This document shows positions 24,727 to 28,643 of a stretch of DNA of 64,000 nucleotides, piece by piece (the stretch's first letter is position 1; each line of letters starts with the position of its first letter). The DNA comes from Crambe crambe. Taxonomy: Eukaryota > Porifera > Demospongiae > Poecilosclerida > Crambeidae. Position numbers and translations under genes: made by a program. The DNA is taken from positions 6,262,001-6,326,000 of the forward strand of contig OZ004592.1 of NCBI GenBank assembly GCA_963924555.1, given 5' to 3'. Under the pieces are notes generated by a model that was not told the origin of the DNA, did no database searches, and saw only the letters and a program-made list of their open reading frames with translations.

Positions 24727-26928
24727 TAATATGCAAATTGTAATTCTATATCAAGAAACCATCCTTGTGAGCTATCTATAGCTGAAGTCCTTGAGACCTT
24801 AATAATTATTGCAGCCTCTTTTAGTCATCCATCATAATTTTATCAGCAGCAAGTCAGTTTGCTGGAACATTTAGTAAAGAAAACAGCAGCAGAAGACAGT
24901 TGTAATAACATGGCTGGAGGCACTGCTACGGCTGGTACAGCCATGGCCGTACCACCATTCAGAGTGTGTGTGGGTATGTGTGTGTATGCAATTTAAATAA
25001 TTATTGATTTATAAGTTAGTACATAGCATTGCCTGGATCATACCAGATTGAAATTGATATTGAACTTACTGGAGGGAATTCCTCAGACCCTCCAGATGGT
25101 AGCTATGGCTGTACCACTATAAATGAGGTGGCTCCAGCTCTGAATAATAGTTGTTGTTGTTTTTTTGTTACCACCACAATTACATAGGTGGCTACTCTAA
25201 TTCAGCAGTTTATACAAAGGAACTCAAGAGTCGACATCAATACCTCCATATCTGCCAACCCCTGGAAGTAAAAATCCCCTATTATGCCAGCATTGTGCTG
25301 GCATTAAGGTTCAACCCATTATGCCCAAAACTATGCCAGCATAATTTGCATGTCCCTAAGTGTCACCTGACTTCCCTCATACATTGTGTAGTGTTATCTT
25401 ATAAATGTATATCAGGCAAACTAATTTCCAAAATATTTTTGCTATATATCTTGGTCATGGTTGGACTTAGGGGTTTTTTTGAATAGATCATTGGAAAGCT
25501 CTTTAAAAAAGCTGCATTTTGGTGGTAAAAAAAAAAAAAACAACAACAACAACTAGGGGCATGTATGAAGGCAGTATGAAGCCTAGAAGTTCAACGAAAT
25601 ATTTTTGAAAATCACCAAAATTGTGGGTACCAACTCCCATAATCTAGCTATGCTCAGAAAAGTATTATGTCAGATACCCCCCAAGAACTTCAAACTAACT
25701 ACTTCACTGTAACATCATTGTTTGATCTCCATAGCTAATTATCATGATAAAAAGATTTGGCCATTTCACATAGCTAATAGGTCCTTAATACATCAGCTGA
25801 TAGCTAATTCATGTGCAAATACAGTACAAGTAGCTATAATATAGCCAATTGCCAAATTGTAAGATTCCAACTAACTATAAGATTCTACTGCAGTAGAGCT
25901 ATGAATTTGCAATAAAATTAGTATAAATAGCCAACCACACATGAAGTGGAGAGGCTCCCCACTTTCCGCCTTCTTTCCTTACACAAGAATTAATACATGT
26001 ATATAGCTTACTCTTGTTACTGGGAGTTGTTTGGGGAATTTTTGGGAGAACATTATCAGACACTCAGATACATTTTTCAATAAAGTAAAGTCATGTATTG
26101 TATATCAGAGGCCCATTCAATGCAAATTGAGATACCATAGCATCTTTGTGCATGGGGAAGAGCTTCTCAACCACAATAAAGTGATCTCTATAATTATAAC
26201 TAGTTATGTGCTTGTAGCACAGAAGGGCAAGCAAAGCAACAACTTTAAATGCTGCATTATGATATTTTGGAGTTGCATGCATGCCCTCTTCTCATAGAGT
26301 CTATAAACCCTATCCCTTTCTTTTTTTTTTATCAAGCCTTGATCGTCTCTGTTCCGCTGATTCAGAGCTTCTTCTGGCTCTATCCTCTTCTTCTGGCTCT
26401 ATCCCATTTCTTTGGTCTAACCTTGCTCTTTTTACTGCTCGGAGCAGTGTTCATTCACTACTGTTTTGCACATGCTCAGTATTTTACCCTTGGGGCTTGA
26501 CATATATATCATCACTAGTTTGTACACCATAGAGAGTGGCTTGCTTCGTTCACAATTACAGTCTTTGGGAAAAAAATTTTTAGTGAGGAAAAGATTACTA
26601 TCCAAGTTATGTATTGCAACTTGGGAAGAGCTATATAGCTGCAGGAAGTCCTTATAATGTACTTTAATTATTCTCAGTCAATGTCCTTTTGTGGGTCCTT
26701 TTGGGAAAATTTTTTGTGAGGAATCCAAATTATGCATTATAGCTATAGAGTTTCACCCCAACATGCAATTTATATGAAAAACCATAGCCCACTAACCACA
26801 AACATCTTTGCAGGAAAGAAGTATAATAAAGACTCAACCACAATTAAAGTAGGGGGAAGTTTTGGGGGGACGAAAAGATTCTGTTCAAATCATGTATCAT
26901 GTATGTCATTATAAATTGCTGGCATAGG
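24727..26928. other. Intergenic region upstream of cysteine-rich gene 3
   Basis: No gene supported. Contains a fragment of the GCATAAT element family at about 25280-25350 (ttatgccagcattgtgctgg and inverted copies) and A/CAA runs at 25527-25552. One ATG-led frame at 24911 has no continuation that I can support. Confidence 0.4.
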
Positions 26929-27636: not shown

Positions 27637-28537
27637 ATGGATTGCCATAATATTAAGGGAGTTGGTATCCACAATTTTGGTGATTTTCGTGAGATCTCCA
27701 ACGAATCAACAGAGAGGAGTCATGGAGGACATGACAACATGCGCCCTTCAAAATGCACTGGTCTGGACACAGGAAAGAAGAACATTATCACCATGGTGGA
27801 CGGTGACGGGATATCTTTGAAGTATACATGTACTACTTCACAAAGAAACTTCAAGAGTCGTCTTACAAGGTACAAGTTGGTCCTGAGCAAGGAGAGGAAG
27901 AAGTTTGGCATCAATGAGATAGTTGTCCTCATTCTCGTGGAGAACAAATGACTCGGACAAGTACTATGAATACTTGATGGAAAAAGCGCGAGTTGACAGA
28001 CTGACAAGAGATTTTTATAGAGAGAGTACATGTAGATGGAGAAATTGGAAATTTAGGATGTTCTGCAATAGAAGGAGCAGTGAGGACAGATTATTGAATA
28101 GAGTAGCAGAAACATAATGGTGATACATGCAAGATGGCAATTGGTCAAGGAATGATCAGATGCCAGGTTGCCATCCATCTCCAAACTCACAAGGGAATCA
28201 GGACTCTGCTGGCCAAGAGATTTGAAATCGTTGAAGTGGATGAATTCAGGTGTGCAACATATGCACAAACCGTCTTGAAAGATATCGCAACAGAAGGGGA
28301 AGATTGTCTCATTCCAGACTTTGCTGCACCACCTGCAGACCCTAACTTGGAAAAGAGAGGTTCGTGGACAGGGACATAAATGCAGCCACTAACATCTTAT
28401 GGGCTGGAATGTCTCATGAAAGGCCCATCTGTCTAAGCAAAACGATCTCTCGGTCGGTGCCGGGGGGAAATCGAGTAACCCATCTCAGACAATATTCACC
28501 TGAGAGTTTATCGCCACAACTGACTGTGGTAGTTTAA
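27637..28537 (+). pseudogene. Fanzor/TnpB-like RNA-guided nuclease, C-terminal relic
   Basis: Order of motifs matches the RuvC half of Fanzor/TnpB proteins. KCTGLDTGKKNIITMVDGDG (27748-27807) has the RuvC-I aspartate. Next come an arginine-rich region (NRRSSEDRLLNRVAE, to 28115) and GNWSRNDQMPG (28136-28168). KRFEIVEVDEFR (to 28252) carries a glutamate that may be the shifted catalytic one described for Fanzors. A zinc-ribbon-like CNIC ... CCTTC follows (28253-28338), and then RFVDRDINAATNIL (28358-28400) with the RuvC-III aspartate; stop at 28535-28537. The pieces lie in three frames with extra stops, and the N-terminal DNA/RNA-binding half is missing, so it is not functional. In life these proteins cut DNA guided by an RNA encoded at the element end. 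It sits between cysteine-rich gene 3 and POLL. I could not identify element ends or a guide RNA. Confidence 0.82.
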
Positions 28538-28643
28538 TAGCTCAAAATTGTGATAATAGCTATCTGAGAACTGTGTTACTAATAGTCACTGTGTATTTGG
28601 TTAAAAATTGAAAGCTACCAGCACTCTCCACTGTGATAGCTAC

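Follow-up and report, generated by a model that had tools for sequence, protein, structure and literature searches.

A Degraded Fanzor1 Copy and Its Relatives in the Genome of the Sponge Crambe crambe

The 64,000-nucleotide stretch of the Crambe crambe genome analyzed here (the window; contig OZ004592.1, positions 6,262,001–6,326,000) very probably carries a defunct Fanzor1 copy, whose relatives elsewhere in the same genome would encode a TnpB/Fanzor-type RuvC nuclease together with a putative 3′-terminal omega-RNA scaffold. Fanzor1 elements of animals have been in print since 2013, with Hydra and Mayetiola among the hosts given in Table 1 of that account (PMC3627910). The discussion of the paper that characterized Fanzors states that their biological role is unknown (PMC10432273).

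Results

The Copy in the Window

A sequence-only reading of the window had proposed a Fanzor relic at 27637–28537 from six named motifs. All six are found, in the expected order, distributed over three forward frames with stops (Table 1). The proposed interval stands as Fanzor from about position 27691; its first 54 bases are not Fanzor. One of the other places matched by the dispersed repeat in this part of the interval lies inside the window (the query gave 23 blastn matches against the genome). This second copy, at 25607–25643, is in the opposite orientation, and the pair may perhaps bound a small element with inverted repeats. On the 5′ side of the window copy, approximately 0.84 kb (on the scale of the relative L012) to 1.1 kb (on that of L011) of the element is absent.

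Table 1. Features of the Window Copy and Its 5′ Boundary
Feature	Position in window	Strand	Basis
Fanzor1 element copy, subfamily B, 5′-truncated and frame-broken	27691–28541	+	blastn to L009, L010, L011 and L012
Short non-Fanzor dispersed repeat adjoining the 5′ truncation	27652–27689		15 other places matched
RuvC-I motif DTGKKN	27766–27783	+	ORF 27637–27951
ORF with SSEDRLLNR region	27923–28117	+	Counterpart in L009 open frame
GNWSRND motif	28136–28156	+	Window translation
RuvC-II motif EVDEFR	28233–28250	+	L015 counterpart aligns with DE of SpuFz1
Zinc-ribbon (TNB) cysteines, C-x2-C ... CC-x2-C	28253–28336	+	PF07282 in L015
RuvC-III motif DRDINAATNIL	28367–28399	+	ORF 28346–28537
Decayed 3′-terminal RNA fold (omega-RNA scaffold candidate)	28475–28541	+	L009/L010 homologues predicted to fold as three-way junctions
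3′ terminal inverted repeat remnant GGTAGTTTAA	28528–28537	+	GGGTTAA end lost

The blastn search of the genome that had been suggested with this reading recovered relatives. Other places in the genome are 91% identical to the query over its positions 275–938, 88% over 409–938 and 92% over 92–314; a fourth place shows 80% identity over 285–830 and contributes a further piece of 74% over 91–221. The relatives carry the motifs of the window within one frame, the RuvC-I counterparts being DPGKKN in L012 and DPGRKN in L015. Because the DNA matches other places and the relatives hold the motifs in frame, the set of motifs in the window is not a chance occurrence. The suggested profile search was unsuccessful for the window itself: none of its four pieces, taken alone, gave a Fanzor/TnpB Pfam match at E ≤ 1, the outcome named in the first half of the refuting condition that came with the reading. 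The window copy is assigned to Fanzor through its paralogs, whose closest matches in the PDB are Fanzor1 proteins, and by this route the relic reading is supported.

The Family in the Genome

The genome searched comprises 143 Mb in 119 contigs. Protein searches with two paralog pieces returned at least 32 and at least 17 matches, from which we count at least 24 Fanzor-related places, including the window. The window copy, L009, L010, L011 and L012 constitute subfamily B, of which every copy seen is broken. Two of these loci on contig C20, L012 (440851–441903) and L009 (410274–410961), lie approximately 30 kb apart and hold the 5′ and the 3′ portion, respectively, of a B element. They are on one strand in reversed order and overlap by 40 bp (97.5% identity), as though a rearrangement had divided a single element.

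Subfamily A includes four near-full copies, L015 (C19), L016 and L018 (both C6) and L017 (C15), with DNA identities of 93%–97% by stretch. The intact relatives predicted by the sequence-only reading are represented by one of these four, L015, in which the frame is unbroken over 654 codons and the product matches SpuFz1, PpFz1 and GtFz1; the frames of L016, L017 and L018 are interrupted. Relative to the A element, L052 (C13) is 83%–93% identical by stretch and L053 (C20) 72%. Protein pieces of subfamily D, on contig C12, are 32%–60% identical to L015. The better-kept relatives are single-ORF elements of about 2.16 kb, bounded by imperfect 16-bp terminal inverted repeats (TIRs). No relative was found in the viral contigs scanned with the L015 protein.

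Protein Homology and Selection

Against the PDB, the L015 protein matches SpuFz1 (7.1e-24), PpFz1 (2.2e-19) and GtFz1 (5.4e-18), and the subfamily B paralog L009 matches the same three proteins (3.8e-10, 1.9e-9 and 2.3e-8, respectively). The Pfam domain PF07282 scores 27.8 bits in L015, above the cut-off of 26.3, and 18.2 in L009, below it. The columns of the RuvC-I aspartate and RuvC-II glutamate of L015 align with SpuFz1, and the RuvC-III aspartate falls outside the aligned stretch. The RuvC catalytic motifs and the zinc ribbon (TNB) occur in L015 in the order that is characteristic of Fanzor1. Homology to characterized Fanzor1 proteins is thus seen in L015 and L009, not in the window pieces, and the closest PDB matches place the family with Fanzor1. 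An unrelated RuvC-like family is a most improbable identity for this family, as the three significant PDB matches are all Fanzor1, Pfam gives a Cas12f1-like TNB domain and nothing was found in its favor.

The dN/dS ratios of L015 against L016, L017, L018, L052 and L053 are 0.27, 0.19, 0.24, 0.36 and 0.32, respectively, over 577–646 gap-free codons and with 0, 1, 0, 1 and 10 stop codons skipped. These ratios show purifying selection among the copies, so selection acted on the protein during the spread of the family.

Element Ends

L015 and L017 span TTAACCCTAGAACTAC to GTAGTTTAAGGGTTAA. Their ends, with 14 of 16 positions complementary, constitute imperfect 16-bp inverted repeats beginning with TTAA. 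The 5′ 16-mer has four exact matches (three Fanzor copies and the 5′ piece L057) and three more at one mismatch; these seven compare with six for the reversed control at up to one mismatch. For the 3′ 16-mer, 17 exact matches and nine more at one mismatch (26 in total) compare with 10 in the reversed control, and the exact 3′ 15-mer is found 18 times versus seven. Since the reversed controls match this frequently, some of the bare stubs, which have no further Fanzor sequence, may be due to chance. TTAA is present at nearly all 3′ junctions, with exceptions such as TCAA in L074.

L016, L018 and L052 begin at GGACCCGG, which forms one side of a small hairpin close to the 5′ end. The three copies have different flanks and this start in common, as if copying had halted there.

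A Candidate Omega-RNA Scaffold at the 3′ End

The last 66–86 nt of the A, B and C copies (GUGACCC ... GGGUUAA) are predicted to fold, for the most part, into a closing stem and two hairpins, the sequences of the hairpins being different. The z-scores of the folds, for all seven sequences given, are −3.97, −3.10, −2.95, −2.71, −2.63, −2.57 and −1.86. In L015 the predicted fold (2192–2269) overlaps approximately the last 15 codons, with the stop codon at 2236–2238. The closing stem is gone from the window copy, which does not close.

A covariance model built from six A-like sequences matched two B copies with 34.5 and 26.5 bits (1.2e-6 and 2e-4), C with 29.5 bits (2.8e-5), the stub L063 with 20.3 bits and D with 19.7 bits (0.0064–0.015), in the last case at a site just after RuvC-III. 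As the terminal bases are common to B, C and D, part of the score reflects plain sequence identity. The model gave no match at E ≤ 10 in the divergent loci L022, L023, L029, L046, L047, L048 and L054 and none in the window at E ≤ 1, and a search of Rfam with L015 had no match at E ≤ 1. The A alignment by itself shows weak covariation, with one two-sided pair and an equally high value in 83 of 500 shuffles; helix 1 is invariant in this alignment. An alignment made with MAFFT from nine RNA ends was set aside, subfamilies B and C being misaligned in it. Because covariation within A is weak, the case for a scaffold is built on the matches across subfamilies and on the folding energies. A structured RNA at the right end is thereby predicted for four subfamilies, as would be expected of an OMEGA system, and lends support at the level of RNA modeling to the earlier suggestion of guide RNAs in the relatives. 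The 3′-terminal fold is a candidate omega-RNA scaffold that would terminate at the end of the element, and the variable flank beyond it would be the guide.

Insertion Scars

The flanks of 24 of the 26 matches to the 3′ end were compared; L053 and L073, with an undefined 5′ junction, were dropped. A repeat was scored when the initial 12 nt of the right flank, with a start no more than 5 nt from its first base, recurred with at most one mismatch within the 160 nt to the left of the element, and flank pairs from different copies served as control. The first cases were already known when this test was devised. It finds the beginning of the right flank again on the left side in nine of 24 copies and stubs, compared with five of 552 cross pairs. 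The count is 4/13 for copies that retain over 30 bp of element (L015, L017, L018 and L052), versus 1/156 pairs, and 5/11 for bare stubs (L062, L063, L068, L071 and L074), versus 1/110. Two variants of the test gave 4/13 versus 2/156 (13-mers, up to two mismatches, 500 nt) and 4/16 versus 1/240 (100 nt, 16 loci). No repeat is seen in the other 15 of the 24, namely L009, L010 and the stub L058 in subfamily B, then L016, L025, L027, L050, L051 and L059, and six bare stubs. In the reverse test, the end of the left flank was found in the right 160 nt at five of 24 loci; in three (L018, L063 and L068) this is the same flank repeat, and in L015 and L062 it is filler.

The repeats are 13 nt long in L015, L018, L052 and L068 and 14 nt in L017, L062, L063 and L071, with one mismatch in those of L015, L018, L062 and L063. 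In seven of these eight the left copy opens with TTAA, and in L015 with TCAA; in L074, TTAA is missing from the right copy. The filler between repeat and element measures 1 nt in L018, 12 in L052, approximately 27 in L017 and approximately 135 in L015. The filler of L062 recurs at +46 of the right flank, and a block of that of L015 at +140. A repeat near L015, considered as a long target duplication, was rejected as such, since it is the filler block that also occurs 140 nt into the right flank. The base after TTAA is A at 14 of 21 sites (8/13 where over 30 bp of element is retained), against 34.4% of the 642 TTAA in the window. Three to four extra nucleotides are present between the element GGG and the target TTAA in L060, L068 and L071. 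As judged by eye, the stubs hold approximately 12–22 bases of the element. None of these loci was seen to hold a clean full-length copy bordered on each side by plain TTAA. The right flanks of both L015 and L017 begin with TTAAAAGAGA; a likeness of guides such as this might conceivably direct where new copies insert.

Discussion

How the Elements May Have Inserted

The flank repeats, together with copies that are intact at the 3′ end and truncated at the 5′ end, suggest that insertion starts at the guide-RNA end, the 3′ side being joined first at TTAA. In the mechanism that we propose, DNA flanking the element would be read through its right end to serve as guide, and the ribonucleoprotein (RNP) would cut matching sites adjoining a TTAA-containing motif (TAM). 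Insertion would begin at the 3′ end of the element at TTAA, copying would proceed toward the 5′ end, and the 5′ side would be closed by end joining with templated filler. Two readings fit the scars, a cut by the Fanzor RNP at a fixed distance or target-primed reverse transcription by another enzyme. The narrow 13–14 nt and the order of motif and then target favor a nuclease ruler, and the re-made right junctions and the halting of copying exactly at TTAACCC favor a template whose ends are defined.

Target-primed reverse transcription in trans, in which a retrotransposon would nick TTAA, copy a Fanzor transcript from its 3′ end, truncate and leave duplications of 13–14 nt, is a plausible if tentative explanation. 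The 5′ truncation and target duplications are those of LINE-type insertion, and the excess of A after TTAA, the filler at the 5′ joints and the short stubs agree with it. LINE-type endonuclease and reverse transcriptase (RT) genes are present in the genome (26 matches in one search; 150 of 801 candidates scored in another). The 3′ joints, however, are without poly(A), and no LINE with the common 3′ tail was seen among those of the 26 matches to the 3′ 16-mer whose surroundings were covered. One endonuclease-bearing repeat family (four copies, 99.0%–99.8% identical) was considered as the mover and rejected, as its tail differs and its 3′ joint has no TTAA. The inverted repeats are also left unexplained by the copying of RNA.

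That the Fanzor itself made the scars is a more doubtful proposition. The RNP, guided by the right flank, would cut the empty allele at a fixed distance to the right of TTAA; the right DNA end would then copy the element 3′-first from the occupied homolog, often aborting, and microhomology-mediated joining to the left break end would leave TTAA and 9–10 nt. Indeed, the eight insertions with measured repeats have to their left TTAA (TCAA in L015) followed by 9–10 nt of the right flank, on the side and in the order that such a cut would give, and filler in L062 and L015 is templated from nearby flanks. Published cleavage positions of Fanzors span 9–21 nt beyond the TAM, but those of Fanzor1 lie at 14–21 nt and do not agree with 9–10 unless the ends were trimmed. 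Furthermore, in L015 and L017, which are full-length, copying ended exactly at TTAACCC and did not continue into the left flank, the extra nucleotides of L060, L068 and L071 suggest a right junction formed anew, and the clean full-length copy bounded by plain TTAA is missing from the loci seen.

Movement of the elements at TTAA by a piggyBac-like cut-and-paste transposase, with the remaining features explained by later decay, appears unlikely. The element ends carry TTAA, the piggyBac target, the TIR beginning with CCCTAGAA is one that we take to resemble piggyBac ends, and nearly identical elements with piggyBac-type transposases are present in the genome. However, the end of the one piggyBac family examined has another sequence, and by eye none of the 62 transposase matches lies at a match to the 5′ or 3′ TIR; the 16-mer searches and this one family's end thus revealed no transposase that shares the element TIR. 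Moreover, piggyBac is known to duplicate only TTAA, whereas repeats of 13–14 nt are observed in eight insertions, and 3′-only pieces with repeats on the left side are not products of cut and paste.

Finally, Fanzor and omega-RNA might themselves be the insertion machinery. The RNP would open a target marked by TTAA, and copying of the element into it would start at the guide-RNA end, perhaps through reverse transcription of a transcript that bears the omega-RNA. We regard this as a long shot. It is prompted by the pieces of approximately 12–22 nt and the 32-nt L058, which fall within the RNA scaffold, and by L059, which keeps approximately 79 nt, little beyond its 66-nt scaffold. If true, eukaryotes would possess in such a machinery a natural parallel to nuclease-primed writing.

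Other Mobile Elements

Several piggyBac-type transposase elements (L064–L067, on C3, C17 and C15) have unbroken frames. L064 is 99.97% identical to L065 over 3.8 kb and 99.2% identical to L066 over 3.4 kb, and from this near-identity they were probably active recently. The endonuclease-bearing family L089–L092 ends on the 3′ side in a short AATTTTG-type repeat, not in poly(A). On contig C28, LINE-type endonuclease matches at positions 216, 7254, 14292 and 21330 show an exact period of 7038 bp, which suggests a tandem array.

Relation to Known Fanzor Systems

SpuFz1 (SPu-1), the Fanzor1 of Spizellomyces punctatus, is the best PDB match and also resembles L015 in organization: it is a single ORF (633 aa, compared with 654 codons) in an element of approximately 2.1 kb with TIRs and a 3′-terminal RNA of about 75 nt (PMC3627910, PMC10432273). 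There, a 75-nt scaffold at the 3′ inverted repeat is joined to a guide of 14–15 nt (PMC10432273). Published accounts describe putative TA duplications and a CATA TAM for SpuFz1, in contrast to TTAA here, and ghost loci that keep both repeats, in contrast to the 13–14-nt flank repeats and 3′-only pieces of the present family. GtFz1 of Guillardia theta, also a Fanzor1, is closer in its TTAAN TAM and in an omega-RNA that overlaps the end of the ORF, but its locus is reported without inverted repeats, unlike the present element with its TIRs (PMC10432273).

The homes of Fanzor1 listed in PMC3627910 include Mariner, Helitron, IS4, Sola2 and MuDr elements and an unclassified TTAN group in insect viruses. 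Members of the latter group have 13-bp TIRs and 4-bp TTAN target duplications, which makes them similar to the elements described here; they reside in viral genomes, however, and section 12 of that paper does not describe repeats of 13–14 nt. The Fanzor1 elements of Hydra and Mayetiola share with the present ones an animal host, a likeness by description only (PMC3627910, Table 1). Neither this family nor the 13–14-nt repeats were found among the listed titles and opening lines of abstracts of Fanzor papers, in a search that covered few subscription papers, and the insertion signature was not encountered in the parts drawn on of articles including PMC3627910, PMC10432273, PMC10711439 and PMC11423790. 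As judged from sequence, we file the family under Fanzor1, a known kind, and the structure of the element as a new variant.

The present analysis adds a large Fanzor1 family to an animal genome. Copies that are nearly identical, an unbroken frame, a predicted scaffold for the guide RNA and scars with a narrow TTAA geometry are found together here. With these, whether a Fanzor helps its element to spread becomes a set of specific questions, concerning the distance of the cut, cleavage of the empty allele and the use of RNA as template.
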